A stretch of DNA of 42,052 nucleotides from positions 1 through 42,052 of IMG/VR virus record IMGVR_UViG_3300007515_000015; one strand, 5' to 3'. Positions 20,408-42,052 of this stretch are shown piece after piece. Numbering within the stretch: the stretch's first letter is position 1; the number at the start of each line of letters is the position of its first letter. The notes beneath the pieces are model-generated. The model was given only the letters and a program-made list of their open reading frames with translations. It was not told where the DNA came from and made no database searches. The position numbers and the translations under genes are program-made. The stretch comes from a virus.

Positions 20408-20586
20408 CAGTCGTCCTCCGACTCGTCTTCGTCAAACCACACGTCGGCGTTGATACTCCGGTATGTCTCCACCAACTCGTTCAGTCGCTCAAGTAGTTCT
20501 TCCTTCTCGTCTTCCGACAAGTTGGCGTCCACCCGGCGAACCCGATTCCAGTCAACCATGACCAGCAGCAGTAGTAGCAGGATCAT
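20407..20586 (-). CDS. Small acidic protein upstream of terminase
   Basis: This 59-codon frame starts at ATG 20586, inside the stop of the HTH gene (ATGA), and ends in a TGATG overlap with the small terminase gene. The first ten residues are hydrophobic (MILLLLLLVM), followed by a charged helix with 'DEKEELLERLNELVETY' and an acidic tail. A second start at 20559 (MVDWN) would remove the hydrophobic segment. Perfect coupling at both ends supports it being real. The function is unknown. Confidence 0.65.
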   Translation of the reverse strand: MILLLLLLVMVDWNRVRRVDANLSEDEKEELLERLNELVETYRSINADVWFDEDESEDD

Positions 20587-21050
20587 TCATTGGACCGTCT
20601 GTTTCTTAGTGCTTTTCTCGCTTCTGAAAAATAACGAGAAATCTGTTCAGGGGATGGGTCAGGATGGGTATGGATGGGTTGGGTGACAAGGGTGTCACCC
20701 CGTGGTGCGTCTTCTGTCACCCCGTTCTGTTCTGTTTGACGCCCCGATTGAGCCACGGGGTGACAAGTTGACAGCCCGTGGAGAACCACCTCGTACCCGT
20801 TTGGCCGACGATCCCAACGAATATGGGAGGGGCCGGGAACCACCCGTAGTTCGCCTATTTCAACGAGTTCCTTGATCTTTCGCTGGACCGTTCTTTCCGA
20901 CAGAAGGGTCTTTTTAGCAATCGTCGCAACAGCAGGCCAAGCATTAGTCCCGTCGTGGTCACAACTGTCAGCAATAGCCAAAAGAACGAGCCTCGCGTTA
21001 CCCACAGACTCCGATACATCCCACACCTGCGCCATTACCTTGACAGACAC
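20583..21050 (-). CDS. Helix-turn-helix protein (HTH_36-like)
   Basis: This is a 155-aa protein with GTG start at 21050 after AAAGGG. Residues of about 5-70 form a winged-helix domain of the kind seen in phage replication-initiator and DnaD-like proteins: 'GNARLVLLAIADSCDHDG', 'WPAVATIAKKTLLSERTVQR', 'KIKELVEIGELRVVPGP'. The second half is polar, His/Pro/Thr-rich and probably flexible, with a basic end ('ARKALRNRRSNE'). No AAA or primase domain follows. It could act as a transcription regulator or replication initiator. Confidence 0.75.
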   Translation of the reverse strand: MSVKVMAQVWDVSESVGNARLVLLAIADSCDHDGTNAWPAVATIAKKTLLSERTVQRKIKELVEIGELRVVPGPSHIRWDRRPNGYEVVLHGLSTCHPVAQSGRQTEQNGVTEDAPRGDTLVTQPIHTHPDPSPEQISRYFSEARKALRNRRSNE

Positions 21051-22179: not shown

Positions 22180-22445
22180 GTGAGAAGTCTCCCTTCTAGG
22201 ACGTTCACATAGTGTTTCACATCTTGGAACTATCCGCAAGGATTTTTTCAACGGCCCGGTTCCAGATTGCGGCGTCTTCCCCCCCCGGCGCGCGGCTGGT
22301 CAAACTGGGACTGGTGGCCGTCAACCCTAACCAACGTCCGGGGCAATGCTCCGGTTCGGTAGATTGGATTTATGGCCGGTCGGGAGGCTGGTCTGAGGGA
22401 AGAATATCCAACTTTCCTCTTGACAACATAAAAGGAGTTTCCACG
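22180..22445. promoter_or_regulatory. Divergent intergenic region between the two arms
   Basis: This 266-base stretch separates the minus-strand late arm from the plus-strand early arm, so promoters for both are expected here. Seen in it: two copies of TTCACAT (22204-22210 and 22216-22222, 12-base period, reading ATGTGAA towards the minus genes), an eight-C run near 22278, a TTGACA at 22420-22425 without a matching -10, and a good Shine-Dalgarno (AAAGGAG) for the gene at 22446. No convincing -35/-10 pair was found. The direct repeat may be a regulator site. Confidence 0.5.
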
Positions 22446-23036
22446 ATGGAAGCATCAACTTTGACCGAAGAGTTGGCTGCTCTAGCAATAGCAGCAGCCG
22501 CTCCGAAGAACAAGGAAGCCGCTTCTGCGGGACGAGCAGTCAAAACTCTGGCTAACCTTGGGATCACTCTCACGGCTGACCAGATGGCGAAGGTTCCTAC
22601 CGCAGCCGCCAAAGTGGACCGGACGACTGGCGACAACCTCGCCACGGCTCTGACCACGATGCTCGATCACTCGCTGATCGACGGCGACGATGCCTCAGCC
22701 GCTCAGACTGCTGTGGACGATTGGAAAGCCGCGAGGCCGACCGGTCGCTCATCCGCTTCCGGTCCACGGATCGGGACTTCGACGGACAACCCCGCTGACA
22801 CTTGGCTCCACCTCGTCGTCAACGGTACCCCCGTCAAGACCACTACTCGGAAGGCCGGCGGAGCAATCAGCAGCCTGTACGACTCGATCGGTGCCATCGC
22901 TCGCAAGGAGCATGGCGTCACCTCCGCAGCATGGAAGGGAAACCTCGATGCGATGAAGGCTTCGATCTACTCGGAGACGGATGCGGACCTCGAGTACGGC
23001 AACGGAATCGTCATCAAGGTGCGGTTCGAGGGCTAA
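22446..23036 (+). CDS. Early protein of unknown function
   Basis: This is a 196-aa protein. The ATG at 22446 follows AAAGGAG; an upstream start at 22212 would read through the divergent promoter region and is rejected. The N-terminal half is Ala/Lys-rich helical (residues 1-90). The second half ('DTWLHLVVNGTPVKTTTRKA', 'GGAISSLYDSIGAIARKEHG') has a short beta/alpha unit and ends with 'YGNGIVIKVRFEG'. As the first early gene, with its own strong hairpin behind it, it may be highly expressed (host takeover or DNA-binding). I do not recognise the family. Confidence 0.8.
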   Translation: MEASTLTEELAALAIAAAAPKNKEAASAGRAVKTLANLGITLTADQMAKVPTAAAKVDRTTGDNLATALTTMLDHSLIDGDDASAAQTAVDDWKAARPTGRSSASGPRIGTSTDNPADTWLHLVVNGTPVKTTTRKAGGAISSLYDSIGAIARKEHGVTSAAWKGNLDAMKASIYSETDADLEYGNGIVIKVRFEG

Positions 23037-23042
23037 GGGAAT

Positions 23043-23070
23043 GAGGGCCGGGGAGAAATCCCCGGCCCTC
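23043..23070 (+). terminator. Strong hairpin with GAAA tetraloop after the first early gene
   Basis: Bases 23043-23054 pair perfectly with 23059-23070 (12 bp, mostly G-C) around a GAAA loop, seven bases after a stop codon. The T-tract of a classic intrinsic terminator is absent (a C-run follows), so it may be a pause or mRNA-stabilising element, or terminate with host factors, as GC-rich hairpins do in Actinobacteria. Confidence 0.7.
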
Positions 23071-23076
23071 CCCCCC

Positions 23077-23142
23077 GGCTTCGTTTGGTACCTGCTTGAG
23101 AAGCAAGACAGCAAGCAGACAGGTTCGATTCCTGTGAAGCCA
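23077..23142 (+). tRNA. tRNA-like element without a D-arm (possible tRNA-Leu GAG remnant)
   Basis: A perfect T-arm is present: ACAGG (23119-23123), loop TTCGATT, CCTGT (23131-23135), with the conserved TTCRA pattern. Six acceptor pairs follow: GGCTTC (23077-23082) with GAAGCC (23136-23141), and discriminator A. A possible anticodon arm CCTGC/GCAAG (one mismatch) encloses TTGAGAA, with U33-type T and anticodon GAG (23098-23100). Only eight bases lie between acceptor and anticodon stem, so there is no D-arm, and the 66-nt length is short. Bases 23092-23098 can instead pair with 23112-23118 (7 bp). It may be a degraded tRNA or a tRNA mimic. No CCA is encoded. Confidence 0.4.
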
Positions 23143-23181
23143 CGAAAGTAAGCAAGACAACAAGCAACGGGAGGTTGCTCA

Positions 23182-23379
23182 ATGAAAGAGAAGGTAGCGA
23201 TACAGATTTTCTGGAAGACCAACCCCGACATGGGAGTTGATGTCATGCCCGTGACCGACCCCGATGAACGCCTGTCGGGAGTGTTCCGGCACTACCCGGC
23301 GGAGAACCCGGCCCAACTCGACGCCATCCTCAAAGGCGTTCACCGCTGTTTCGAGGTAGTTCAGGAGGTGTGGGACTGA
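23182..23379 (+). CDS. Small protein of unknown function
   Basis: This is a 65-aa protein with GGGAGG before the ATG at 23182. It contains 'VAIQIFWKTNPDMGVDVMPV' and 'NPAQLDAILKGVHRCFEVVQ', a beta-hairpin plus helix pattern. One cysteine is present. It is coupled to the next gene by a TGATG overlap. It is an early gene, and the family is not recognised. Confidence 0.7.
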   Translation: MKEKVAIQIFWKTNPDMGVDVMPVTDPDERLSGVFRHYPAENPAQLDAILKGVHRCFEVVQEVWD

Positions 23380-23579
23380 TGAGTAGTGCGAGGCTATGTA
23401 TCACGGTGCCTGAGGCGCTATGGCGTCGAGCGTGCCCCGACGGTGACTCACCGTCGAAGGTCGTACAGGAGGCGCTCCGCCTGATGGTGGACGCCAAGTT
23501 CGAGGCGACGAACGCCTCCATCCGAGAGTACTACGAGGAGGCCATTTACTCAGGGTACTACGAGGAGGCCATGTCATGA
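23379..23579 (+). CDS. Ribbon-helix-helix-like small protein
   Basis: This is a 66-aa protein starting at ATG 23379 after AGGAGGTG; the earlier start at 23370 is less likely. The N-terminal 'ARLCITVPEALWRRAC' and 'SPSKVVQEALRLMVDAKF' match the beta strand and two helices of ribbon-helix-helix DNA-binding proteins. A repeated YYEEA appears twice at the end (DNA repeat of about 17 bases at 23530 and 23557). It may be a regulator of early genes. Confidence 0.7.
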   Translation: MSSARLCITVPEALWRRACPDGDSPSKVVQEALRLMVDAKFEATNASIREYYEEAIYSGYYEEAMS

Positions 23580-23653
23580 GTAAGAAGCGCAAGCAGCCAC
23601 ACAACCTGCGACCGAAGGGCGGTCGCACGACCCCGAAGGGAGGGCGACGATGA
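23576..23653 (+). CDS. Tiny basic peptide (25 codons)
   Basis: ATG 23576 overlaps the preceding TGA (ATGA) after a GAGGAGG site, and the frame ends TGA 23653. The product is Lys/Arg/Gly-rich (MSKKRKQP...RPKGGR). Coupling and ribosome site are good, but the length is very short, so it may not be a functional protein. Confidence 0.4.
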   Translation: MSKKRKQPHNLRPKGGRTTPKGGRR

Positions 23654-23661
23654 AGGAATGA

Positions 23662-23675
23662 ACTCTACATAGAGT
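23662..23675. promoter_or_regulatory. Short perfect palindrome, operator-like
   Basis: ACTCTA and TAGAGT form six-base arms with a two-base spacer. It lies two bases before a possible start codon at 23677, in a small gap between tiny genes. It could be an operator for a dimeric regulator such as the ribbon-helix-helix or XRE protein, or an mRNA hairpin. The evidence is the symmetry only. Confidence 0.4.
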
Positions 23676-23676
23676 C

Positions 23677-23769
23677 ATGAGTACCCTCGCACCACGCAAG
23701 GTGGCACCGGCTCACGACCGGAGCGAGGGACGACGGAAGCACCGTCAACCTAGGAATGGAGGTTCCTAA
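23677..23769 (+). CDS. Tiny basic peptide (30 codons)
   Basis: The frame from ATG 23677 to TAA 23769 overlaps the next gene's ATG (TAATG). The product is Arg/Pro/His-rich. The ribosome site is weak (AAGGAAT at distance), and the region also holds the leader hairpin of the next gene. It could be a leader peptide for 23769-23960 rather than a protein gene. Confidence 0.35.
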   Translation: MSTLAPRKVAPAHDRSEGRRKHRQPRNGGS

Positions 23770-23960
23770 TGAAAGTAACCCCAAGACATGAAACCTTTAT
23801 CGACGTGGAGTTGGACCACACCTCGCAACAGGCATTGCGCTTGCTGTTCGAGCGGACACCCAACTTCCCTTCGCTGCTGCTTCCACTAGCGGAGGCAGTC
23901 GGGTGGGAAGATCCTGCTCCCCGCCGCGCCGTCTACATGAAGGCGAAGGAGTCGGCATGA
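23769..23960 (+). CDS. Small protein of unknown function
   Basis: This is a 63-aa protein. The ATG at 23769 follows the AGGAATGGAGGTTCC leader, which also occurs before 24322. The sequence is amphipathic helical ('SQQALRLLFERTPNFPSLLL', 'PLAEAVGWEDPAPRRAVYM'). It is coupled to the next gene by an ATGA overlap. It has no cysteines. No family is recognised. Confidence 0.7.
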   Translation: MKVTPRHETFIDVELDHTSQQALRLLFERTPNFPSLLLPLAEAVGWEDPAPRRAVYMKAKESA

Positions 23961-24130
23961 CTGAAGCCACCCAAGGCACTACGTCTGCCTTTACCCAACC
24001 GTGTCTACCGGGCTTTGAACCCGACGACACGCCAAGCGACGAACCCTCTCTGGAGGATAGGGTCATTCGGGTCTTGATGGCATCAGCCCGAGCGAAACTG
24101 GCTGCCTCCAAGGAGGCGGACGGATGCTGA
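23957..24130 (+). CDS. Small protein with PCLPGFEP motif
   Basis: This is a 57-aa protein from ATG 23957. It has a disordered N-terminal half with 'QPCLPGFEPDD', resembling short peptide motifs that bind sliding clamps (Q-x2-L-x-F-like), then a helix ('DRVIRVLMASARAKLAASKE'). If real, the motif would recruit the host DNA polymerase III beta clamp. This is a hypothesis from motif likeness only. It overlaps the next gene by seven bases. Confidence 0.65.
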   Translation: MTEATQGTTSAFTQPCLPGFEPDDTPSDEPSLEDRVIRVLMASARAKLAASKEADGC

Positions 24131-24255
24131 GCGTACTCACCGTCGTCATCCAAGTCCTATTCATCGTGGTCGTACCCTTTGCGATGTACGCCTGCTACCG
24201 AGAATGGCGCGAGGACCTCAAAGAGTTCTGGCGCGACGAGTTCAAACGGGGTTAG
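24124..24255 (+). CDS. Tiny single-pass membrane protein
   Basis: This is a 43-codon frame with AAGGAGG before ATG 24124. It has a strong hydrophobic helix (residues 3-22, 'SVLTVVIQVLFIVVVPFAMY') followed by a charged tail with 'REWREDLKEFWRDEF'. It overlaps the previous stop by seven bases. It may act as a small membrane effector, such as a superinfection-exclusion or holin-like peptide. The function is unknown. Confidence 0.65.
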   Translation: MLSVLTVVIQVLFIVVVPFAMYACYREWREDLKEFWRDEFKRG

Positions 24256-24261
24256 CCCGAT

Positions 24262-24291
24262 TTGGCATAGGCAACCAACGTCTGCTAAAAT
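24262..24291 (+). promoter_or_regulatory. Sigma-70-type promoter candidate
   Basis: TTGGCA (24262-24267) and TAAAAT (24286-24291) are separated by 18 bases, each one mismatch from consensus (TTGACA, TATAAT). It lies in the 66-base gap before the gene at 24322, with the ribosome leader beginning at 24306. It is the best promoter seen in the window and would drive the early genes to the right, including the AAA+/VWA pair. Confidence 0.65.
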
Positions 24292-24321
24292 GGCAGGCAG
24301 CCGACAGGAATGGAGGTTCCA

Positions 24322-24534
24322 ATGGCTGAGTTACCCGGTGAGATCAAGACGATCCACCTTCCCGGTCCAACCCGGTGCTGTGACTTGTGTGCGATAGAGG
24401 ACAAGGAGCAGGACGCGGAGTACGACATGCCAACGATCTTCGGGTCGTGGGGGTATGTATGCGAGGCGCACCTTCGCACGCATGTACCTCGCGGCGGGGA
24501 GTCGATCGGTACCCACATCGTTTGGACGGGCTGA
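24322..24534 (+). CDS. Small Cys-rich, zinc-binding protein
   Basis: This is a 70-aa protein starting at ATG 24322 after TGGAGGTTCC; the ATG at 24310 lies inside the leader. The cysteines CCDLC (about 19-23) and, after about 25 residues, 'YVCEAHLRTH' make a C2-C-H type zinc site. It is acidic in the middle. It is coupled to the next gene by TGATG. It is likely a small zinc-finger protein of early function. Confidence 0.7.
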   Translation: MAELPGEIKTIHLPGPTRCCDLCAIEDKEQDAEYDMPTIFGSWGYVCEAHLRTHVPRGGESIGTHIVWTG

Positions 24535-24668
24535 TGCCCGCCGAACGGACCACCTACTGCCGGTGTACCTCCTGTAAGAAGGACGCACACGGGCAAGGAC
24601 CCGGACTCGTATGGGTATGGGACGAGTCCCGCGACAAGTGGATAAGGGGGTGGCCGATCTCCTGCTGA
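24534..24668 (+). CDS. Tiny Cys-rich protein
   Basis: This is a 44-codon frame from ATG 24534, overlapping the previous stop (TGATG), to TGA 24668. It has Cys at 'YCRCTSCKK' (C-x-C-x2-C) and a final Cys, enough for one metal site. It has an aromatic centre ('VWVWDESRDKWIRGW'). It follows another zinc protein in the same operon. The function is unknown. Confidence 0.6.
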   Translation: MPAERTTYCRCTSCKKDAHGQGPGLVWVWDESRDKWIRGWPISC

Positions 24669-24697
24669 CCTGCTACGGCTACCGAGCCTAGCCCTTT

Positions 24698-24730
24698 GTC
24701 CCGCACCACCCTCCCCTACGGGTGCGGGAC
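24698..24730 (+). terminator. Hairpin before the AAA+ gene
   Basis: GTCCCGCACC (24698-24707) pairs perfectly with GGTGCGGGAC (24721-24730) around a 13-base loop, in the 107-base gap before the AAA+ gene. No T-run follows, only ATTGG. It could be an attenuator or a partial terminator that sets the level of the ATPase pair, or an mRNA processing site. Confidence 0.5.
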
Positions 24731-24775
24731 ATTGGGGTGCGCTCGCACCAACAGACCTCTTTGGAAGGAGGCAAC

Positions 24776-25873
24776 ATGAATGACACCGACACTTCGGCTG
24801 ACCCCATCGTGGTTCACCCGGAAGACGTTGGGCAACAGGTAGACACAGTTACCTTGACTACTCACGAAACATGCGGGTATGCCAAGGTGGAACTACCGAG
24901 GTACGACCCCATGTCGTTCCCCGAGTCTGACCGGGTAAAGATCCCGACAGAATCTACCTTCATCGACCACGACGACCTCTCATACCGAGTCGGCGTGGAC
25001 TTCGCACGGGGACGAGTCCCCATGCTTTGGGGACCAGCAGGGGTGGGCAAGACACAACTAGCCCGCCACCTTGCGTTCCTCATGCGGGTTCCCTTTGAGC
25101 GTATCCCGCTCGGTGAGACCTCAGAACGTGAGGATGTTACCGGGCACTACGAACTCAAGGGTGCCACCACCGAGTGGATCACATCACGGCTAGCCCGGTC
25201 ATTCACCCGACCGGGAGTCGTATGCGTGGACGAGTGGAACGCAGCCCCACCGGCTGTACTCCACGTCGCCCGTCCTGTCCTAGACGACTCCGCCGCGCTC
25301 GCGCTGGACGCCTACGACGGGCGCATCCTGATGAAGCATCCCCATTGCTTCATGGTTGCGACAGGCAACCCCGACTGGATGCCCCAGTACGCAGGTCTGC
25401 TACCACTCAGCGAGGCTGACGCCGACAGGCTTTCCCACATCAACGTGGGGTGGCCGGAAGTACGGACAGAAGCAGAGATCCTTCTCAACCACCTCGGCCA
25501 GCACGATCTGGACAAGGTACCGGCATGGCAAGTTCTCTGCGCCCTCGCCACATGGCAGGACCTCCGGTCAAGCATCGACCGGCAGGGCCTAGCGATCACG
25601 GCTGGCACCCGGTCGCTGATCAACTTCGTTGAGTGTCTCCAGTACCACCCGGTACGAGAGTCGATGGCGAAGGTGTACCAGCGTATGGACTCCCAGTCGT
25701 ACTCGCGTGTCGAACAGGCGTTGGACTCCCACGATTGGGGACGCAACCCCAACCCGACAGCGCTCGAGTTCTGCGAGTCAGTAGCGGACCCCGCATACGA
25801 ACTCGCCTCCAAGGTGGGTACGACCCTCACCGTGGAGGAGTGCGACGAGGGTGAAGACGGGGACGATGAGTAG
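24776..25873 (+). CDS. MoxR/CobS-like AAA+ ATPase
   Basis: This is a 365-aa protein. The ATG at 24776 follows GGAAGGAGG at good spacing; the longer frame from 24722 runs through the hairpin. It shows Walker A 'GPAGVGKT' (86-93), Walker B 'VVCVDEWN' (148-155), sensor-1 'VATGNPDW' (N198) and an arginine in 'SEADADRLSHINVGW' (R218) typical of the dynein-related AAA_5/MoxR/CobS group. The N-terminal 70 residues are a separate beta-rich part, as in CobS. It ends overlapping the start of a CobT-like VWA protein, the usual partner. I expect a hexameric ring that remodels a target with its partner's help. The target is unknown. Confidence 0.9.
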   Translation: MNDTDTSADPIVVHPEDVGQQVDTVTLTTHETCGYAKVELPRYDPMSFPESDRVKIPTESTFIDHDDLSYRVGVDFARGRVPMLWGPAGVGKTQLARHLAFLMRVPFERIPLGETSEREDVTGHYELKGATTEWITSRLARSFTRPGVVCVDEWNAAPPAVLHVARPVLDDSAALALDAYDGRILMKHPHCFMVATGNPDWMPQYAGLLPLSEADADRLSHINVGWPEVRTEAEILLNHLGQHDLDKVPAWQVLCALATWQDLRSSIDRQGLAITAGTRSLINFVECLQYHPVRESMAKVYQRMDSQSYSRVEQALDSHDWGRNPNPTALEFCESVADPAYELASKVGTTLTVEECDEGEDGDDE

Positions 25874-28160
25874 GCGGAGCGACCACCCGTCAATCGGCGC
25901 ACTCGAGAACGAAGCGTGGCTACACGATACCGACCCGGATTGGATCAAAGCATACGAAGTAATGGGGGACCTCGTACCGAGGTTCACCGACATCGTACGA
26001 CTCGCGGCTGGTGACACGGGCCTACAGGTCATAGTCCGACCTAATCAGGGTCCAATGACCAACGGGGCCAAGGTCGTCATACCCGTAGACATCGGGTTCG
26101 CTAACGTCGATCCGAAGCGTCCGTGTACCTGTGACACGAGCGACGACTGCGCCTACCACGTCTTTGTGGGGTACCTGATTCACGAAGCAGCCCACATCGC
26201 TTTGGGTTCCACCAAAAAGGTGACGCCCGAACTGATCGGGGACGTACTCGCGTCGTTCGACAAGATCGGGGCGTACATCGGGCCGAAATATGCGGAGCAG
26301 GCGTTCACTTCGCCAGCATCCACCACCGCCCGGGTGACACTCGAAGCGATGACGGTCCTGACACCCGAACAATGGAGCAGGTACGACCGCAAGCCGGTGA
26401 GTCTCCTTGAAGTGGCCGGCCTGTTCAATCGTCACGCTCCCAACGTATGTAACGCCTTGGAAGATGCCCGCATCAACCAAGTGATGGGGTTACAGCGATC
26501 CGCTTTGGACCAAGTTATGAGAAGGCTCCTCAAGCGCATAGTGATAAGCGCGATGGGGGTAGAGGACGGACTCGGGGAAGCACCAATCGGGTACCAAGTC
26601 GCTGTCGGTATGGAAGTCAAGATGGAGCATGACCTTGATCTCGGACCTCTACTGAAGTCTGAGACAGCATCAGTCGCCCTTGCCGACGACGTACTCCACC
26701 GGCTCGTCACCAACCCCGACCTGTTCCAAAGCACCGCCGATTGCGTGGCTGCTTCTGCCATTCTCACCGAACACCTCCGCAACACATACGGGTTGTACGA
26801 GGTGTCCGTAGACCGTGAAACCCGACAGGGATCGAAGTTGAAATCCGGTAAGGACACGGGCGACGACGGCAAGATGAAGCCAAGCCAGCAGAAACGGGAA
26901 GCAAAGGAGTTGGGTCAGGGCTCCGACCGGACTTTGACCCGGTCAAGGAACACCGCCCGCGCCGACGACCGAGGGTTCGGAGAGTATGACCGAACCCACG
27001 ACACCCCAACAGAGGACCCTCAAACCCGAACCGACTTGAACAAGGCGTTGATCGACGCTCTGGACAAACTCGCAGACCCAACTGAGGTAGAGGGCCCTGC
27101 TGAGGCAGCCAACACCCCGTATGCGGGTGGCTACGGAGTCAAAGCGGGGTCAGGGGAAGGCTCCTACCGAACCGTCGTGCTTCGCCCCAATCTGGAAGTT
27201 CGAGCGCATGACGACATCATGATCGGACCCGGGTTCACATACGCAGCGGGCAACTCGGGCGCGCCGGAACGAATCCAAACCTTGGACAACCAGACGTTCA
27301 AGCCCGTCGAAGCATCGCAGCGGGCTCTAGCCGAAGCCCTTGGACTCAACCGGAGGTCAGCGAACGTGCCGAACCTCCCGTCCGGGCGTCTACATGGCAG
27401 CAAACTCGCCAAGGTCCCGTCTGGTGGACGGCGAGTATTCAGGCGTGTAGAGAAGCCAGCCAAGAGGTCGTATGCGGTACTCATAGGGGTTGACCAATCC
27501 GGCTCCACTCACGGAGGTACGGACGACCAACTACGGGCACTCGCGTACGGGCAGGCCGAGTTGCTGGACAGAGCGGGAATACCGTTCGCCATCGCAGGCC
27601 ACACCGGACGAGGGTACGCCACACACCTTGACGGGGACAGGTTCGGGGAGTTCGAGTGGGAATCGAAGGAAGCCTGCGAAGAAGTCTGCCAGTCCTACGG
27701 CGTGGAGCCGGGGGGCCGGATAGACCTCGCAACCATCCAACTCATCAAGAACTTCGCTGAACCGTGGGACCTAAGAGCGAAACTGGCTCACGCCAACTTG
27801 TCGGGCGTGGCCCAGAACCTAGACGGCATCACCCTGCGGGCGTACATGAATCTGCTCTGCTCGCACAGAGCGACCGACCGCATCCTGCTCTACTACACGG
27901 ACGGGGCAATGCCCGCTGAGGACAGGTCCCACCAGACTCCGATCTTGGAGGCGGAGTGCCGACGGGCGAAGGCCATGTCGATGCTCCCCGACCGGCGACT
28001 ACACCTCATCGGTGTCGGAGTCGGCACCGACTCGCCCAAGAAGTACGGACTCGACACCATCGAAGTCCCGAATCTGATTGAGGAGGGTGAAGACGAACTC
28101 GGCATCGGCCTCGTCGTAGAAGGTCTGTCGGAACGAATCCAAGCAACCATCAACAAGTGA
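25866..28160 (+). CDS. CobT-like protein with HExxH and VWA domains
   Basis: This is a 764-aa protein (ATG 25866; a GTG at 25851 is also possible). The N-terminal part has CTCDTSDDC (87-95) and a zincin-like 'HEAAHIALG' (H106-H110), followed by 'NALEDARINQVMG' (197-208), like CobT and DUF2201 proteins. Residues of about 320-420 are polar and low-complexity. A CobT-like linker ('GRLHGSKLAKVPSGGRRVF') leads to a VWA domain with MIDAS 'DQSGST' (D543, S545, S547) and 'YTDGAMP' (D679). It is encoded directly after and overlapping the AAA+ gene. The pair resembles cobalt-chelatase CobST or MoxR-VWA, but no CobN is present, so chelation is doubtful. Confidence 0.85.
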   Translation: MSRRSDHPSIGALENEAWLHDTDPDWIKAYEVMGDLVPRFTDIVRLAAGDTGLQVIVRPNQGPMTNGAKVVIPVDIGFANVDPKRPCTCDTSDDCAYHVFVGYLIHEAAHIALGSTKKVTPELIGDVLASFDKIGAYIGPKYAEQAFTSPASTTARVTLEAMTVLTPEQWSRYDRKPVSLLEVAGLFNRHAPNVCNALEDARINQVMGLQRSALDQVMRRLLKRIVISAMGVEDGLGEAPIGYQVAVGMEVKMEHDLDLGPLLKSETASVALADDVLHRLVTNPDLFQSTADCVAASAILTEHLRNTYGLYEVSVDRETRQGSKLKSGKDTGDDGKMKPSQQKREAKELGQGSDRTLTRSRNTARADDRGFGEYDRTHDTPTEDPQTRTDLNKALIDALDKLADPTEVEGPAEAANTPYAGGYGVKAGSGEGSYRTVVLRPNLEVRAHDDIMIGPGFTYAAGNSGAPERIQTLDNQTFKPVEASQRALAEALGLNRRSANVPNLPSGRLHGSKLAKVPSGGRRVFRRVEKPAKRSYAVLIGVDQSGSTHGGTDDQLRALAYGQAELLDRAGIPFAIAGHTGRGYATHLDGDRFGEFEWESKEACEEVCQSYGVEPGGRIDLATIQLIKNFAEPWDLRAKLAHANLSGVAQNLDGITLRAYMNLLCSHRATDRILLYYTDGAMPAEDRSHQTPILEAECRRAKAMSMLPDRRLHLIGVGVGTDSPKKYGLDTIEVPNLIEEGEDELGIGLVVEGLSERIQATINK

Positions 28161-28170
28161 AGGAGCAGCA

Positions 28171-28476
28171 ATGACCATGCCAACCCCAACGGAGCAATGC
28201 CCGCGATGTGATCGCACAACGCTCCAATACGAACAAGTATTGAACGCCTTGTCTCGCACAACCCGAGGCTTCTACGACCCGCCCGTGTACGTCTGCTCCG
28301 ACTGCGGAACAGACGAAGCACTAGAGGAGTACTTCCTCCACTCGGCTACACCTAAGGACGCTTGGCCCCTGCCGGCCCTGTCGTTCGTGAGTCTGGTTGA
28401 CGACATGAAAGCACGAGTCGAAGAGCACCGACTAATCATCAACATGCCCGCTGAGGGCAAGGAGGAAACACAATGA
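28171..28476 (+). CDS. Zinc-ribbon protein
   Basis: This is a 101-aa protein with GAAGGAG before its start. Two CxxC pairs, 'CPRCDRTT' (about 10-13) and 'VCSDCGTDEA' (about 42-45), form a zinc ribbon. The C-terminal half is helical and acidic. It overlaps the next gene by four bases. It may act with the AAA+/VWA pair just upstream or as a transcription adaptor; nothing more can be read. Confidence 0.7.
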   Translation: MTMPTPTEQCPRCDRTTLQYEQVLNALSRTTRGFYDPPVYVCSDCGTDEALEEYFLHSATPKDAWPLPALSFVSLVDDMKARVEEHRLIINMPAEGKEETQ

Positions 28477-28715
28477 GCGACGAAGGTTTCTCAATCACCA
28501 CGCCGGAAGGCATCGAAGCGTACCGGCTGCTCACTATCAGGGCTGCGTTGCGGTTGGAAGTCAAGACTGGTCTGAAAGCCAGCCGAGCAAACGTCCTACA
28601 CGCAGCACAGCGGGTCATCGAAGAGCGAAACATGGCTCCCGTCCGCACCCGCAAGCAGGCACTCAAGGCAATGGACCTGATCTGCGACGAGTTGGAACCG
28701 GGAGTCCTGAAGTGA
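28473..28715 (+). CDS. Small helical protein of unknown function
   Basis: This is an 80-aa protein with CAAGGAGG before the ATG at 28473. It starts 'SITTPEGIEAYRLLTIRAAL', then 'RANVLHAAQRVIEERNM' and 'KQALKAMDLICDELEPG'. It is all-alpha and amphipathic, with one cysteine. Similar short proteins sit in early operons of many actinobacterial phages. The family is not recognised. Confidence 0.7.
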   Translation: MSDEGFSITTPEGIEAYRLLTIRAALRLEVKTGLKASRANVLHAAQRVIEERNMAPVRTRKQALKAMDLICDELEPGVLK

Positions 28716-28924
28716 TGAGCCGCATGAGCGACCTTCATCTGGACATACAGCGCCACCTCGGGTCTGAAATCCAAGACACCTTTGGCCGGTGCGCTCGTCC
28801 AGAAGACTTGGCACGTTGCGTCTACAACGCAGGCGCATACCTGAACGTGCCGACAGGTGAGGTACTACAAGTACTGAACGACATGATCAACGAAGCAACG
28901 AAGGAGATGGAAAGCGATGAGTGA
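28712..28924 (+). CDS. Small protein of unknown function
   Basis: This is a 70-aa protein whose start overlaps the previous stop (ATGA-like; ATG 28712 or 28715 both possible). It contains 'QDTFGRCARPEDLARCVYNA' and 'PTGEVLQVLNDMINEATKEM'. It is helical and acidic. It overlaps the next gene by eight bases. The function is unknown. Confidence 0.65.
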   Translation: MMSRMSDLHLDIQRHLGSEIQDTFGRCARPEDLARCVYNAGAYLNVPTGEVLQVLNDMINEATKEMESDE

Positions 28925-29300
28925 CCTCAAGATATTCAACGTGGTCAACGAAGGCGGCAAGGCCCGACTGGTGCCACTCAGCACCGAGTGTGAGGAATAC
29001 AACGGGTGGACAAACCGTGAAACATGGGCAGTCAACCTCCACCTATCCAACAAGCAGGACTGGTACCAAGGAGCAATCGACGCAGTAGCAAAGCAACTTC
29101 ACGACGAACCCGACACCTCTCCCGTCTACATGGGTGACGTACTCCGTCAATACTGGGACTACGACATCTTCTGCGACCCCGATCTCGAGTTGGAATGGGA
29201 AGTCCTAGTACTCCGTGACGTAGGCAGCGAATGGCGGGTCAACTGGACGGAGATCGCAGAGCATTGGATCGCAGACGTAAAGGAGCATCAAGATGCCTGA
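28917..29300 (+). CDS. DUF7249-like protein
   Basis: This is a 127-aa protein with GAAGGAG before ATG 28917. The block 'EEYNGWTNRETWAVNLHL' (about 26-43) is the signature of a small family found in phages and plasmids (DUF7249, 'NGWTNxETWxVNLWL'). The C-terminal half is rich in Asp/Glu/Trp, suggesting an acidic helical domain that may mimic DNA or bind a protein. The function is unknown in the family. Confidence 0.75.
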   Translation: MSDLKIFNVVNEGGKARLVPLSTECEEYNGWTNRETWAVNLHLSNKQDWYQGAIDAVAKQLHDEPDTSPVYMGDVLRQYWDYDIFCDPDLELEWEVLVLRDVGSEWRVNWTEIAEHWIADVKEHQDA

Positions 29301-29571
29301 CATAGACGACCTAGTAAGCGCACAGGACATAGGGCAGATCGCTCAGGTCCGTACCTCTGCGGTAAACAACTGGCATAAAAGGTACGGGACTTTCCCCCAG
29401 CCGTACATCGAACGGTGGGGTCGGATGCTGTGGCTCCGAACAGAAGTCATGGACTGGCTTGAATCATCTGGAAGGCTGACAGCCCACGCAATCATCAGAA
29501 ACCTCCTGTCGGAAGACCCGGACATCTCCGCTGCCGAGAAGTGGCTGGACCAATCAGAGGGACGGGCATGA
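29293..29571 (+). CDS. Excisionase/MerR-type HTH protein
   Basis: This is a 92-aa protein. Residues 5-60 read 'LVSAQDIGQIAQVRTSAVNN', 'WHKRYGTFPQPYIERWG' and 'MLWLRTEVMDWLES', a winged-helix of the AlpA/excisionase/MerR type with the usual Trp-x3-Y pattern. GTAAAGGAGC precedes it. As there is no integrase, it is more likely a transcriptional regulator than an excisionase. Confidence 0.75.
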   Translation: MPDIDDLVSAQDIGQIAQVRTSAVNNWHKRYGTFPQPYIERWGRMLWLRTEVMDWLESSGRLTAHAIIRNLLSEDPDISAAEKWLDQSEGRA

Positions 29572-29873
29572 TCGAGTGTGTGATTTGTGGGGTTACTGAC
29601 CCCGAAGAAGGTCTGTCAGGACCGGGCAACCACGGTATCGAAGGCGACGTTTGCGAACTGTGCTTCCGGGTGGCACCGATGACTGACGACTTCGGAAAGG
29701 AGCATCACAGTGGCAGGTGGGTACCAGTTCCGCCCGCTCATCTAGGCGATGACTTGGACGAGTGGGTTGAAACCTGTCCGCATGATCGGGTCGAGTTGCT
29801 AGCCCACGACCGCGAAGCGCGCCATTACATATGGGAGTGGATTCCGTTTGAGTCCGAAGAGCGACATGGTTGA
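29568..29873 (+). CDS. Zinc-finger-like small protein
   Basis: This is a 101-aa protein from ATG 29568 (ATGA overlap); the longer frame from 29541 is rejected. It has a CVICGVTDPEEG knuckle and a second 'DVCELCFRVA', together a two-CxxC zinc site. The C-terminal half has Trp/His/Glu and 'CPHDRVELLAH'. It lies in a run of small Cys-rich early genes. The function is unknown. Confidence 0.7.
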   Translation: MIECVICGVTDPEEGLSGPGNHGIEGDVCELCFRVAPMTDDFGKEHHSGRWVPVPPAHLGDDLDEWVETCPHDRVELLAHDREARHYIWEWIPFESEERHG

Positions 29874-30114
29874 AGCAAACTGTGTTCGCTCTGGCTGGTG
29901 CTGCCAGCAGGCCCCATGCCCGTTCGGTGAAGCCGAAGAAGGCGGAACTGCCTGTATCCACCTCGTTGGCGATGAACCCGGCGAGTACGAGTGTGGCAGG
30001 TACGATGAGATCATGGCTATGCCACCCGAGATGGGAGCAGAGGTCGCTCCAGCCTTCGGCGCTGGATGCTGCTCTAACTTCAATCCGGTGCGAATCGCCC
30101 TGCTGTCACGGTGA
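29866..30114 (+). CDS. YkgJ-like Cys-rich protein
   Basis: This is an 82-aa protein (ATG 29866). Cysteines are arranged as 'VRSGWCCQQAPCPFG', 'CIHL', 'EYECGRYDE' and 'FGAGCCSNF', resembling the YkgJ/CxxCxxCC family of zinc or iron-sulfur proteins often found in phages. It would bind one or two metals. It overlaps the methyltransferase gene by four bases. The role is unknown; redox or metal sensing is possible. Confidence 0.75.
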   Translation: MVEANCVRSGWCCQQAPCPFGEAEEGGTACIHLVGDEPGEYECGRYDEIMAMPPEMGAEVAPAFGAGCCSNFNPVRIALLSR

Positions 30115-31001
30115 GCCTTCGACTACTCAAATGGCCGGGAGGCAAAGGCGGGATGCTAGATGACCTACTCCCCCTCATACCCTACGACAACCTGTTCGTA
30201 GACGTATTCGGAGGTGGCGGGTCGGTCCTACTCAACCGCAAGCGATCACCGGTAGAGGTCTACAACGACCTTGACGGCAACCTCGTCAACCTGTTTCGTG
30301 TCCTCCAGACAGACCCCCTAGAACTAGAGCGCCGACTCAGGTCCACGCTCTATTCCAAAGAGGAGTTCGTCAAGGCCATACACATCATCGACGGGCGCGA
30401 CGAGCCAGCGGACGACATCGAGCGGGCTTGGGCCATGTTCGTGAACATGAACCAGAGCGTCGTAGGCCGTGTCATACGCACACAAGGCAACTGGTCCAGA
30501 GCCGCGATAAGCGTCTCAGGCGAGTCTGCGGTAGTAGCAGGGTGGAAGTCCCTCGTGAACCGCTTAGGTGGCATCTACGACCGTCTCAGCGGGGTTCAGG
30601 TAGAACAACGGGAAGCGAACGAGGCGCTTAGATACTGGGACGGAAGCGAAACCGTCTTCTATGTGGACCCCCCATACATACACGACACACGGGTTGAGTC
30701 CGAGTACTACGCCCATGAGATGAGCGACGAGGCCCATGAGGAAATGGTCAGCACCCTGTTGGAGTGCCGTGGCTACGTCGTGCTATCAGGCTACGACCAC
30801 CCCATCTACAACAAGTTTGATGACGCAGGGTGGGAACGAGTCGAGTTCAGGCGCGTCACTACAATGACGGCAAGTCAACGAGGAAAAGGCGATGATTGGG
30901 ACAGAGAAATCAAACCAAGGGGTGAACGGGTGGAAGTGGTATGGCTAAACCAGAAAGCCCATTCCCAAAAGGCGGACCCGACGCTGTGGGACACCCTGTG
31001 A
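30111..31001 (+). CDS. DNA adenine methyltransferase (D12 class)
   Basis: This is a 296-aa protein with GTG start at 30111. Motifs: 'LKWPGGKGGML' (K7 to L16) and 'FVDVFGGGGSVL' (29-40), which bind S-adenosylmethionine, and the catalytic 'DPPY' (186-189). 'SGYDHPIY' and the C-terminal 'GERVEVVWLN' are typical of D12 class Dam enzymes. It methylates adenine at a short site, perhaps to avoid host restriction or to mark phage DNA. No cognate restriction gene lies nearby. The end overlaps the next gene by 61 bases. Confidence 0.9.
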   Translation: MSLRLLKWPGGKGGMLDDLLPLIPYDNLFVDVFGGGGSVLLNRKRSPVEVYNDLDGNLVNLFRVLQTDPLELERRLRSTLYSKEEFVKAIHIIDGRDEPADDIERAWAMFVNMNQSVVGRVIRTQGNWSRAAISVSGESAVVAGWKSLVNRLGGIYDRLSGVQVEQREANEALRYWDGSETVFYVDPPYIHDTRVESEYYAHEMSDEAHEEMVSTLLECRGYVVLSGYDHPIYNKFDDAGWERVEFRRVTTMTASQRGKGDDWDREIKPRGERVEVVWLNQKAHSQKADPTLWDTL

Positions 31002-31258
31002 TAGAGGCAGGTAAGACAGCAGTAGGGATGCTGAGGTCGGCATGGGACGACGACGCAAAGTTCAGCCAGAAGGGTGTCACAACCCTGCTGAAAGGACTCG
31101 GGGTTCCTGAACTCACCCACTTGGCAATGGTCCAGACCGTGTGGCTGCTTGAACAGATGGAGTGGATCGCCAACGTGGAACTGCCCGACAGCGAAACCCT
31201 TTCTGTAGAGGATCAGATCGCCTGTCTAGGAATCGACATCGCCCTCGGTGAGCAATGA
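30941..31258 (+). CDS. Small protein of unknown function
   Basis: This is a 105-aa protein with ATG 30941 after GGAAGTGG. The start lies 61 bases inside the methyltransferase gene. Sequence blocks are 'AVGMLRSAWDDDAKFSQKGV', 'HLAMVQTVWLLEQMEWIA' and 'VEDQIACLGIDIALG'. It is mainly helical. It is coupled to the next gene by ATGA. The family is not recognised. The long overlap is unusual for this genome. Confidence 0.65.
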   Translation: MAKPESPFPKGGPDAVGHPVIEAGKTAVGMLRSAWDDDAKFSQKGVTTLLKGLGVPELTHLAMVQTVWLLEQMEWIANVELPDSETLSVEDQIACLGIDIALGEQ

Positions 31259-31551
31259 GCGAGACTCCGAGCCTCTCCGAGCAATGGGAAACCCACACTT
31301 GGAACAACGACCGGTGCGAGGCGTGTGGTGAGTTGAAAACCTCGCACGCTGCGATCCGTGCCTGTGATCCTGAAAGAAGAGCAAAGGGGCTAGCCATGCT
31401 CGATTACCACCCCTACCCGACGAAACACAAGCGGTCTTGTATTGACGACGAAGGAAAGATCGAGTGCGTGTGTGGTCTAAGCGAGTCGATGGACCTCTAC
31501 GACGAGAGCGTTGCCGAGCGGGCTTTTGAGTTCAGGCCGGAAGAAGCGTAA
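31255..31551 (+). CDS. Cys-rich small protein
   Basis: This is a 98-aa protein starting inside the previous stop (ATGA). It has CEACGELKTSH, then 'SCIDDEGKIECVCGLSE', together four Cys plus His that could bind zinc. It ends 75 bases inside the opposite-strand RusA-like gene, with which it converges. It is acidic. The function is unknown. Confidence 0.65.
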   Translation: MSETPSLSEQWETHTWNNDRCEACGELKTSHAAIRACDPERRAKGLAMLDYHPYPTKHKRSCIDDEGKIECVCGLSESMDLYDESVAERAFEFRPEEA

Positions 31552-31854
31552 CTCCACGACATGATCAGGCCCGTCATCTGGCAGAACCCCGGCATCAACC
31601 AGCCCGTCAATCGCAGACTTCGCAGCCGGGAAACATGCGCCCGTATCCTGCGTCCGCCTGTCGTTCAGATGGGGCATACAGGTCAGGATGCACCTCTCCA
31701 TAGGGGGTATGCGGGCCTTCATAGCGAGCCATGCGAACGAGTCGCGCCATTCCTTGACCTGTTTCGCCCTGCTGTAGTAGTTGCTGTCACCGTAGATGCT
31801 GTTCTGAGTGAACGGCCTCGCGTAGTGGACGACTTCCCAACGGTCAGTCGTCAT
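31477..31854 (-). CDS. RusA-like Holliday junction resolvase
   Basis: This is a 125-aa protein on the opposite strand to its neighbours. The N-terminus has 'YARPFTQNSIYGDSNYYSRA'. The core 'DTGACFPAAKSAIDGLVDAG' (D71, K80, D84) and 'VLPDDGPDHVVELRFF' (D94/D95) follow the RusA layout, with acidic residues that bind Mg and a Lys near the helix. It is expected to cut four-way junctions made during recombination-dependent replication, in keeping with the RecT-like gene nearby. It overlaps the XRE gene by 11 bases. Confidence 0.75.
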   Translation of the reverse strand: MTTDRWEVVHYARPFTQNSIYGDSNYYSRAKQVKEWRDSFAWLAMKARIPPMERCILTCMPHLNDRRTQDTGACFPAAKSAIDGLVDAGVLPDDGPDHVVELRFFRPELKSPLGNALVVEVHRLA

Positions 31855-32092
31855 CTAGCAGGTCTTCGGGTTCGCACTCAAACAGTTCGCACAGGGCCAG
31901 CATGTGGTTGTGGCGTATGGGCATCCGACGATTCGCGTACTTCGACAGCGTGGACGGGTCGATGCCGACCAGACCCGCGACGTGGTACATCGGTGCCCCA
32001 CTACGGGCGATCATCTGCCGTAGCGCCGATGGCCGGCCACGGGTCGCAATGATCGGAATGGACTGACCCAGCCGAGGGGGATCTAATGTCAT
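31844..32092 (-). CDS. XRE-family HTH regulator
   Basis: This is an 82-aa protein with AAGG before ATG 32092. The HTH core 'LRQMIARSGAPMYHVAGLVG' and 'IDPSTLSKYANRRMPIR', then 'LCELFECEPEDLLDD', is typical of Cro/CI-type regulators. It is transcribed away from the RecT-like gene and lies beside a 48-base divergent region that it probably controls. It may act as an early/late switch. Confidence 0.85.
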   Translation of the reverse strand: MTLDPPRLGQSIPIIATRGRPSALRQMIARSGAPMYHVAGLVGIDPSTLSKYANRRMPIRHNHMLALCELFECEPEDLLDDD

Positions 32093-32140
32093 AGGCGGAC
32101 CTTATCATGTATCCAAGAAGATCCGAAGGAGGATTACCCA
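32093..32140. promoter_or_regulatory. 48-base divergent region between XRE and RecT-like genes
   Basis: It must hold ribosome sites and control signals for both directions. On the plus strand a TATCAT (32103-32108) resembles a -10 box and GAAGGAGG precedes 32141; on the minus strand AAGG precedes the XRE start. No -35 match is seen. A regulator site for the XRE protein is likely here but cannot be pinned down by eye. Confidence 0.45.
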
Positions 32141-32932
32141 ATGTCAGAGATTGAGAAAACACCGGTACTCACACCGGAAAACCAAGAACGAGTCCTGAAG
32201 TACCTAGGACTAGACCCCCGCGACACGGCCACGCAGGCCCTCGTCCAAATCTGTAACCGCTACGGGTTCGACCCGCTGTTGAAGCACGTCGTACTCATCG
32301 GCACAGGTGGCAAGAAGAACACCTACGTCACACGGGACGGGCTGCTACACCTCGCACACCAGAGCCATCAACTCGACGGCATCGTCGTAGAGGAAGAAGG
32401 CGCTGACAGCGAGGAATGGTGGGCCGTCGTACAGGTCCACCGCAAGGACATGGGCCACCCGTTCAAGTACCGGGGACGGTACTCCAAGAAGGGGGCCAAC
32501 GCCAAGTACGGACCTGAGATGGCAGTCAAGTGCGCTGAAGTCATGGCGCTACGCCGAGCCTTCGACGTGTCCCTGCCCACCGTAGAGGAACAGTGGGACA
32601 CTGTGAGCGGGCAGGTTGGGAGCGTCGAACCCCTACAGGAACATCATGTACCCGACTCCAAGGAAATCGCAGCGGTCGAGGAGATTCCACCGGCGGCAGC
32701 CGAGATCGCCAAGGTAAGGCGCACTCTTTCATCCGATCCCACCCGTGAAGAACTCGAAGACCACCGTGACCGGAAGTACATCGTCAACCGCATGAACCAC
32801 CCCGAGGTACCCGGCAAGGTACGATCAGAGTTCCGGGCCAAGTACGGTCATCCCGACGAACTCTCTGGGGCTTTGATGCACGAAGCGCGACTCTGGGTCG
32901 ATGAAGCGACCCCTGATGTTGAACCCTTCTGA
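32141..32932 (+). CDS. RecT-like single-strand annealing protein
   Basis: This is a 263-aa protein with GAAGGAGG before ATG 32141. Blocks 'QICNRYGFDPLLKHVVLIG', 'YVTRDGLLHLAHQSHQLDG' and 'GPEMAVKCAEVMALRRAFD' form the RecT/Bet/Erf-like core (helix, strand, aromatic 'YVTRDGL' motif, and a Lys-rich end). The last third is charged and flexible. It would anneal single strands in phage recombination, with the RusA-like protein resolving junctions. No partner exonuclease is recognised in the window. Confidence 0.85.
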   Translation: MSEIEKTPVLTPENQERVLKYLGLDPRDTATQALVQICNRYGFDPLLKHVVLIGTGGKKNTYVTRDGLLHLAHQSHQLDGIVVEEEGADSEEWWAVVQVHRKDMGHPFKYRGRYSKKGANAKYGPEMAVKCAEVMALRRAFDVSLPTVEEQWDTVSGQVGSVEPLQEHHVPDSKEIAAVEEIPPAAAEIAKVRRTLSSDPTREELEDHRDRKYIVNRMNHPEVPGKVRSEFRAKYGHPDELSGALMHEARLWVDEATPDVEPF

Positions 32933-33254
32933 CGAACTCTTGGAGGCTGTACGGGCTGGCGCATGGTGGCGTCGTCAAGCGGCTTGTGTCGATGTCGAAC
33001 GCGAAGTGTTCTACGACCGGACACGGCAGCGCGAGGCGCTCACCTACTGCCAGCAATGCCCTGTGAGCAACTGCTGCTTGGACTACGCCCTGAAATGGGA
33101 ATCTGAATACGGGGTGTTTGGCGGGTACAGCGCTCGACAGCGCGCCCGGTTACGGCCCGAACTCACCCACTACGCCAAGGAAAAGTTACGACAAGGCATT
33201 TGGGGATCGGTCCCCGTACTGGGAAGCGACGACGGACTTGAGCAGGCTGAGTAG
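32901..33254 (+). CDS. whiB: WhiB-family iron-sulfur regulator
   Basis: This is a 117-aa protein. C29, and then C50-x2-C53-x5-C59 ('YCQQCPVSNCCLDY'), give the four-cysteine cluster-binding site of WhiB proteins. The 'EYGVFGGYSARQRARL' block (71-75 GVFGG) replaces the usual G-V/I-W-G-G tryptophan with Phe. The basic segment after it binds DNA in family members. WhiB proteins are found only in Actinobacteria and their phages, which identifies the host group. The end overlaps the holin gene on the other strand by 69 bases. Confidence 0.9.
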   Translation: MKRPLMLNPSDELLEAVRAGAWWRRQAACVDVEREVFYDRTRQREALTYCQQCPVSNCCLDYALKWESEYGVFGGYSARQRARLRPELTHYAKEKLRQGIWGSVPVLGSDDGLEQAE

Positions 33255-41230: not shown

Positions 41231-42052
41231 CTAGTAGAAGAACGCCAACTCTGGGTACTGCTCTACCAGCGGAGTCGCTGACACGAAAGATGTCTGCGGC
41301 TCACGCACCGGAAGTACCGCATTGCCTCCCATGCCGCTGAGTTGACTAACGATTTCGTCCATCCAAGCCGGATCACCCGCATTAGCAAACCCTCCGTACC
41401 CTTTACCAGACCAAGTACCGAGAGAGTTAGTGACTTCCGGCATGTAGTTCATCGTCGCGGCGTCAATATCCTGCTGCAACGCTGCTACAAGCGGATCGTA
41501 ATAACCCAGTTCTAGAGTAGAAACAGTGTTATCGACACCGGTTTGATAATCCGGGTAGTTCCACACCAGCGGATCGCCCGTTTCGTCATAGTTGTACGGG
41601 TCGTAGCCCAGCGATTTACCGTAAGTGGTTGCCAACGGATTGAACTCAGCAGCCGAACCAGTCATTCCTTGGCCCTGATCTGTTTGGCCTTCCATGTTCT
41701 GCCACAGAGCCAACGTCGCCAAGTTGTTGTCGGTGACTGGCGCGCCGATACCTGTCAGCACGTCCGTTGCGAAATCGCCGGTCGTTAGTTGATCGGACAG
41801 CGATGGACCAACCGTGAAATCAGCAACAGTCGGATCAGGTTTGTAGTCGCCTAGATCCCCGAACGTGTGGCTCAAAGCCCGACGGGTCGGTGACGTGCGA
41901 GGCATCCCGCCCGGGCCGGGGAAGAAACCCGGGTCCCAAAAGGGGTCGTCTGCTGGGGGCGACCAACCCGGAGCCTCGGGAGCCGGAGCCTCGGGAGCCG
42001 GAGCCTCGGGAGCCGGAGCCTCGGGAGCCGGAGCCTCGGGAGCCGGAGCCTC
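41231..42052 (-). CDS. Large coiled-coil virion protein, C-terminal part
   Basis: This is the end of the 965-aa gene whose start is at 2195 (circular join). It includes the EAPAP repeat, a Trp/Pro-rich linker ('GWSPPADDPFWDPGFFPGPG') and a 220-residue C-terminal domain rich in Tyr/Asp/Gly ('LGYDPYNYDETGDP', 'SGKGYGGFANAG'), ending TAG 41231. The domain resembles fibre-tip or lectin-like beta folds but has no known motif. An ATG at 41905 could give a separate 224-aa form, without a clear ribosome site. Confidence 0.8.
   Translation of the reverse strand, partial: EAPAPEAPAPEAPAPEAPAPEAPAPEAPGWSPPADDPFWDPGFFPGPGGMPRTSPTRRALSHTFGDLGDYKPDPTVADFTVGPSLSDQLTTGDFATDVLTGIGAPVTDNNLATLALWQNMEGQTDQGQGMTGSAAEFNPLATTYGKSLGYDPYNYDETGDPLVWNYPDYQTGVDNTVSTLELGYYDPLVAALQQDIDAATMNYMPEVTNSLGTWSGKGYGGFANAGDPAWMDEIVSQLSGMGGNAVLPVREPQTSFVSATPLVEQYPELAFFY
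41934..42052. repeat. Terminal direct repeat (copy 2 of 2)
   Basis: It is identical to 1-119. When the map is drawn as a circle, this copy should be removed, which leaves about 41,933 bp. The boundary lies inside a 15-bp tandem repeat, so the repeat length and the genome size carry an uncertainty of some units. Confidence 0.9.

Follow-up and report, generated by a model that had tools for sequence, protein, structure and literature searches.

Here, we analyse two overlapping genes, S and T, in the IMG/VR virus record IMGVR_UViG_3300007515_000015, whose entire length of 42,052 bp is called the window. S encodes a MoxR-type AAA+ ATPase, and T encodes a large protein with a CobT-type VWA domain. 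An earlier note on this DNA had pointed out the pair, suggested that it stands in place of replication genes and proposed that it remodels host proteins. The parts of the locus are as follows, with residue numbers referring to S or T:

24776-25873, + strand: S, MoxR-type AAA+ ATPase (CbbQ/NorQ/CobS group), 365 aa
25031-25054, + strand: Walker A motif GPAGVGKT, S86-93
25217-25234, + strand: Walker B motif VVCVDE, S148-153
25851-28160, + strand: T, with zincin-like head, variable linker, proposed finger and CobT-type VWA domain, 769 aa
25935-26789, + strand: N-terminal head of T, residues ~29-313
26130-26150, + strand: cysteine pair C94...C100 of T
26181-26195, + strand: zincin motif HEAAH, T111-115, in a predicted helix (101-117)
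26460-26471, + strand: EDAR, T204-207, with the putative third metal ligand, in a predicted helix (196-215)
27267-27458, + strand: conserved segment before the VWA domain, T473-536, proposed as a finger for the ATPase pore
27459-28157, + strand: VWA domain with MIDAS (DQSGS at T548-552, T675, D684)

S begins with ATG at 24776 behind a strong Shine-Dalgarno sequence (AAGGAGG) and ends with the stop codon at 25871-25873. It matches AAA_5 in Pfam (5.7e-17) and phrog_5424 in PHROG (3.8e-47). In an alignment of 26 actinophage-type homologues, to which all counts out of 26 refer, the Walker A residues G86, G89, G91, K92 and T93, the Walker B residues D152 and E153, the sensor-1 residue N198 as well as R166, R218 and R264 are invariant (26/26). 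The AF2 model of S (pLDDT 87) has its best Foldseek matches in NorQ and CbbQ (TMt 0.83-0.86). In motifs and in fold, the AAA+ core of S is thus intact and belongs to the CbbQ/NorQ group.

T starts with GTG at 25851 or, alternatively, with ATG at 25866, and its ribosome-binding site GGAGGAG lies within the 3' end of S. The two genes overlap by 23 nt, or by 8 nt with the ATG start. Together they comprise 3385 bp, approximately 31% of the early arm, which occupies about 11 kb of the + strand (22290-33254); the structural genes are encoded on the - strand. The overlap, the share of about a third of the early arm and the intact Walker motifs had all been described in the earlier note and are confirmed here.

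The VWA domain of T matches CobT_C (PF11775) with 8.9e-6 and 25.9 bits at a cut-off of 21, in good agreement with the CobT-like character first assigned to it, and T matches phrog_5298 in PHROG (4.1e-57). The MIDAS residues D548, S550, S552 and D684 are found in 26/26 homologues and T675 in 24/26, such that S has an adjacent VWA partner with a complete MIDAS, as in MoxR AAA+/VWA pairs. Because of the Pfam and PHROG matches and the invariance in the 26 homologues, a chance origin of S and T is excluded. The AF2 model of T is of moderate quality (pLDDT 73, pTM 0.49); in Foldseek, the nearest folds to its VWA domain are those of the NorD VWA domain, from complexes with NorQ, and of the MIDAS domain of midasin. 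Structure prediction of the single proteins, as proposed in the earlier note, thus places S beside NorQ and CbbQ and the VWA domain of T beside NorD.

The N-terminal head of T has no Pfam match, neither to the CobT N-terminal domain (PF06213) nor to any peptidase family. A relation to CobT is suggested by intermediates: aligned by hhalign with the CobT-N set of SSU5 and Rhizobium phages, the head gives P=9.6e-9 (reversed control 0.38), and the SSU5 head itself matches PF06213 at 4.7e-29. Through the profile link to these PF06213-positive heads, the head of T would be a relative of the N-terminal domain of CobT. C94 and C100 occur in 26/26 homologues, C92 in only 4/26; the CxC-x5-C pattern noticed before (C92xC94x5C100) is thus present together with HEAAH and the MIDAS, while its first cysteine is not conserved. 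H111, E112 and H115 of the HExxH motif as well as D205 and R207 of the EDAR motif are invariant (26/26), and E204 is found in 25/26. HExxH and a third ligand are hence present as sequence motifs; no zincin fold is among the top 50 PDB fold matches listed for T.

HExxH is intact in the T proteins of SSU5, E. coli p009_B, Aeromonas, RHEph10, CRP-810 and ICP2. It is lost in an A. baumannii plasmid (L022, QEVAK), in phiK7B1 (L021, SEISK), in ANB28 (L076, REVST) and in the genuine rhizobial CobT of Shinella; the first three keep the VWA domain and the partner ATPase. The downstream Asp is present wherever HExxH is present, and it is gone in three of the four homologues without HExxH. From this pattern, the head of T is most readily understood as a metal site of zincin type that most viral members have retained. 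In the Shinella CobT the site would have decayed, a direction of change that we infer without a rooted tree. As HExxH and the downstream Asp are kept in the actinophage branch, metal binding by the head of T is probable, and the head may also clip its target.

One might go further and regard T primarily as a metallopeptidase under ATP control, with S as its unfoldase and the destruction of a specific host protein as its task. The invariant HExxH and Asp, each in a predicted helix, and the joint loss of both in most of the homologues concerned argue for it. However, several homologues without HExxH still have S, the VWA domain and the MIDAS, the head lacks a Pfam peptidase match, and MoxR/VWA relatives remodel rather than degrade their targets. 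We consider this alternative possible, yet doubtful.

The pair is conserved as a unit, as a survey of the kind suggested in the earlier note makes clear. The compared loci stem from actinophages, enterobacterial phage-plasmids, plasmids of A. baumannii and Aeromonas, and phages of Rhizobium, Roseobacter, Vibrio, Pseudomonas and Stenotrophomonas. No gene family other than S and T is common to 31/31 of these loci, and no third conserved component occurs across their flanks, which indicates a two-component machine without a dedicated third gene. At least 129 phage records annotate the pair as CobT/AAA-ATPase. It is also present in approximately 900 plasmid records, mostly phage-plasmid-like, with E. 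coli among the commonest hosts. Adjacent AAA+ and CobT-type VWA genes have been described as viral CobST (PMC8651126), and a pair of MoxR and metallopeptidase-vWA genes has been described in jumbo phages (PMC7824862). The S/T pair is therefore not new but a member of a viral gene pair that is already known and widely misannotated.

The lack of a common third gene also bears on the idea of a phage-borne MoxR-vWA conflict system of the VMAP/iSTAND ternary type, serving superinfection exclusion or defence. Its precedent is the MoxR-vWA core that predicted conflict systems of bacteria employ (PMC8195603). Besides the missing third component in the 31 loci, T has no effector domain C-terminal to its VWA domain, and the PADLOC models match T not at all and S weakly, at a generic P-loop. 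Such a system is highly improbable here, and a role as defence system was rejected, as there was no convincing PADLOC match.

For viral CobST, which is known from Druskaviridae, Saparoviridae, cyanophages and others, it was proposed that the gene products capture the CobN of the host (PMC8651126). Those genes resemble S and T in being adjacent AAA+ and CobT-type VWA genes of tailed viruses in a cluster without CobN. Transferred to our pair, S and T would be a viral cobaltochelatase motor that provides more cobalamin for host enzymes, e.g., class II ribonucleotide reductase. Apart from the proposal being already in print, this is favoured by the two CobT-related domains in T and by a match of S to a solved CobS structure (4e-5). 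Many actinobacteria make cobalamin, which also agrees with this role.

The remaining evidence points in the other direction. CobN (PF02514) is absent from the window, as the earlier note had stated, and from all carrier records searched (0/30), and a cobaltochelatase with a phage-encoded CobN was rejected for this reason. The control E. coli genome has no CobN either. As E. coli phage-plasmids nevertheless carry the pair, a hijack of host CobN cannot explain the E. coli carriers, though it may still apply where the host has CobN. Bacterial CobT shares a homologous VWA domain with T and, through intermediates, a probably related N-terminal domain, but the CobT of Shinella, which works with CobN, is devoid of the HExxH that the phage branch retains. 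S scores 27.5 bits against the CobS equivalog model TIGR01650, far below its cut-off of 558.55. Ribonucleotide reductase was found in 0/26 carrier records from the viral-contig set, actinophages included, and among the carriers only SSU5, RHEph10 and phiK7B1 have it; a tie to a viral ribonucleotide reductase was rejected on these grounds. An Rfam search detected no riboswitch near the operon, of cobalamin or any other type. Judged by these comparisons, a cobaltochelatase role fits S and T poorly, and the capture of host CobN appears decidedly unlikely. As a side observation, the control genome of Caulobacter vibrioides shows a match to the CobT N-terminal family and none to CobN, so this orphan cellular CobT may have a role outside cobalamin synthesis.

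We consider it probable that S and T form a single ATP-driven MoxR AAA+/VWA remodelling machine which resembles NorQ-NorD and CbbQ-CbbO and is not a cobaltochelatase. As no third gene travels with the pair, the machine most likely acts on a protein of the host. In NorD, a finger sits in the NorQ pore and two grips on the target have been proposed (PMC13036017, PMC9976466). By analogy, S would form a ring whose pore is plugged by the finger of T. One target would be gripped by two parts of T, its N-terminal head and the MIDAS of its VWA domain, and would be distorted as ATP hydrolysis twists the VWA domain against the head. With its probable metal, the head may also clip this target.

The comparison with NorQ-NorD of Paracoccus and Jhaorihella is based on the fold of S (TMt 0.79-0.85 to Paracoccus NorQ), the VWA fold, the MIDAS and the plan of head, linker and finger. 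The target of NorQ-NorD is nitric oxide reductase, and the cited NorD literature does not mention an HExxH head for NorD. From position and conservation, T473-536 is the putative equivalent of the NorD finger (PMC13036017, PMC9976466). The window and three relatives (L002, L030 and L074) form a close clade of four phages. Within this clade, the finger segment (59-61% identity) and the VWA domain are both conserved at about 60%, compared to 41-44% in the head and 31-33% in the linker. This is the pattern expected if head and linker contact variable targets. S is equally close to AfCbbQ2 (TMt 0.86) of the CbbQ-CbbO Rubisco activase. The target of that system is Rubisco.

Several points weigh against such a machine. 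Its target, complex and activity are predictions, as are the ring, the finger, metal binding and cleavage; the model of T is moderate, and the putative metal site is read from sequence motifs. The finger is assigned from position and conservation only, and the head is without a match to any Pfam peptidase family. As HExxH is lost in some phage and plasmid homologues, cleavage is no general requirement. Finally, a target gene may lie outside the compared flanks in every phage. Of the earlier interpretation, the kind of machine is supported, with NorQ-NorD and CbbQ-CbbO as closer models than the chelatase, whereas nothing singles out RNA polymerase, the replisome or a defence complex as its target. 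A phage-encoded CobN and the loss of the ATPase residues had been named as observations that would speak against it, and neither was seen. The observation itself is thus confirmed and its interpretation partly supported.

A role in virion assembly, with the pair acting as a chaperone plus a maturation peptidase for capsid or tail proteins, was proposed for the MoxR/metallopeptidase-vWA pair of group 2.2 jumbo phages, with an archaeal-virus MoxR-vWA precedent cited there (PMC7824862). This pair (ASV44729/ASV44728) combines a MoxR ATPase with a vWA protein that has a metallopeptidase domain at its N-terminus, and it is likened to S and T by its described architecture alone. The genomic context differs. 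In the window, S and T are located on the early arm, on the strand opposite to the structural genes, and in elements of the ICP2, SSU5, Rhizobium, Pseudomonas, Stenotrophomonas and Aeromonas types the pair adjoins primase, helicase, ligase or DnaE. The surroundings of the 31 loci have no structural gene in common. We therefore regard virion assembly as an unlikely function.

The replication context was evaluated with the following features of the window:

20583-21050, - strand: lambda-O-like replication initiator (HTH_36; phrog_1032 1.6e-20, phrog_391 8e-16, PF13730 4.7e-12)
2891-3967: SbcD-like exonuclease (phrog_284 5.6e-50)
32141-32932, + strand: RecT/Bet-like single-stranded DNA annealing protein (PF03837 5.2e-6; phrog_252 9.2e-10)

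In line with the earlier note, none of the window proteins scanned matches a polymerase, helicase or primase family, and Pol III alpha is also absent from the window in a six-frame search. PolA and DnaB_C are absent from the 18 actinophage-type carrier records, and Pol III alpha is absent from all of them. Despite their size (62-84 kb), 16/16 of the larger actinophage-type records searched (L004-L017, L039-L068) are without PolA, Pol III alpha and DnaB_C. SSU5, RHEph10, phiK7B1 and ANB28, however, have their own DnaE and helicase, and ICP2 has PolA and a helicase; in proteobacterial carriers, DnaE or PolA and a DnaB-type helicase often adjoin the pair. Since these carriers own a polymerase and a helicase, and since the window phage has an O-like initiator, which the earlier note does not mention, the suggestion that the pair replaces replication genes is not supported. 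The annealing protein and the exonuclease are also at odds with it. The pair belongs to the early or replication region without replacing it.

Directly upstream of S, a further element was found:

24683-24745, + strand: hairpin with an 11-bp upper stem, a 2x2 pyrimidine mismatch, a CCC/GGG helix and a C-rich loop

An inverted repeat occupies the equivalent place in L002 (8803-8863), L030 (1763-1831) and L074 (2617-2686). All 11/11 pairs of the upper stem are retained in 4/4 phages, six of them with two-sided changes, and so are the lower CCC/GGG helix and the pyrimidine mismatch. The folding z-scores range from -3.3 to -5.9. The covariation is derived from four sequences, two of which are similar to each other. 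A DNA-pattern scan was too unspecific for use, and the hairpin is not evident 5' of the pair in distant phages. As it has no T-run, it is no standard terminator. The hairpin may act at the RNA level to control the S/T operon, and its C-rich loop could pair with the Shine-Dalgarno sequence of S; a function of the inverted repeat at the DNA level is equally possible. What is new here is this covarying hairpin, located directly 5' of the operon in the four phages of the clade.

Two more genes are located on the early arm:

28171-28476, + strand: small Cys-rich protein directly 3' of T, confined to the four-phage clade
32901-33254, + strand: WhiB-like regulator (PF02467 1.5e-17)

The Cys-rich protein is 51-54% identical in the three relatives and has no close family in the Pfam scan. 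The WhiB-like gene points to an actinobacterial host. Within the clade, identity is approximately 70% for S, 46% for T and 94% for the major capsid protein. Relatives of S in viral contigs were not detected with a single protein as query, while an alignment-based search succeeded; a clade-specific S search yielded no further clade members. L074 (NYZR01000052.1), the single relative from the scan of genome contigs, is filed under a Pacearchaeota metagenome-assembled genome and is probably misbinned, given the WhiB homologue on the contig.

The window carries a 119-bp terminal repeat (1-119 and 41934-42052), and a 41,822-bp relative has one of the same length. Being the trace that an assembler leaves of a closed circle, these repeats indicate a closed, complete assembly. 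The repeat of the window falls inside a 30-nt repeat coding for EAPAPEAPAP, which belongs to a virion-side gene spanning the circle junction.

Cobalamin or porphyrin biosynthesis is a frequent annotation for gene pairs of this kind, and in viral ecology they are often listed among the auxiliary metabolic genes. The most useful result of our analysis is the evidence against a cobalamin role. In its boldest form, which we put forward as a tentative possibility, the 'B12 enzyme' genes of hundreds of phages and approximately 900 mostly phage-plasmid-like plasmids would represent a distinct viral machine. Its AAA+ motor would power a VWA protein with a zincin head, which in early infection would both remodel and cut one specific protein of the host, and bacterial CobT would be a branch that has lost the metal site. 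If S and T are indeed a remodelling or proteolytic machine, many claims of viral B12 metabolism would have to be revised, and laboratory phages, one of which is recorded on E. coli K-12, would offer a way to test a widespread route of host takeover.

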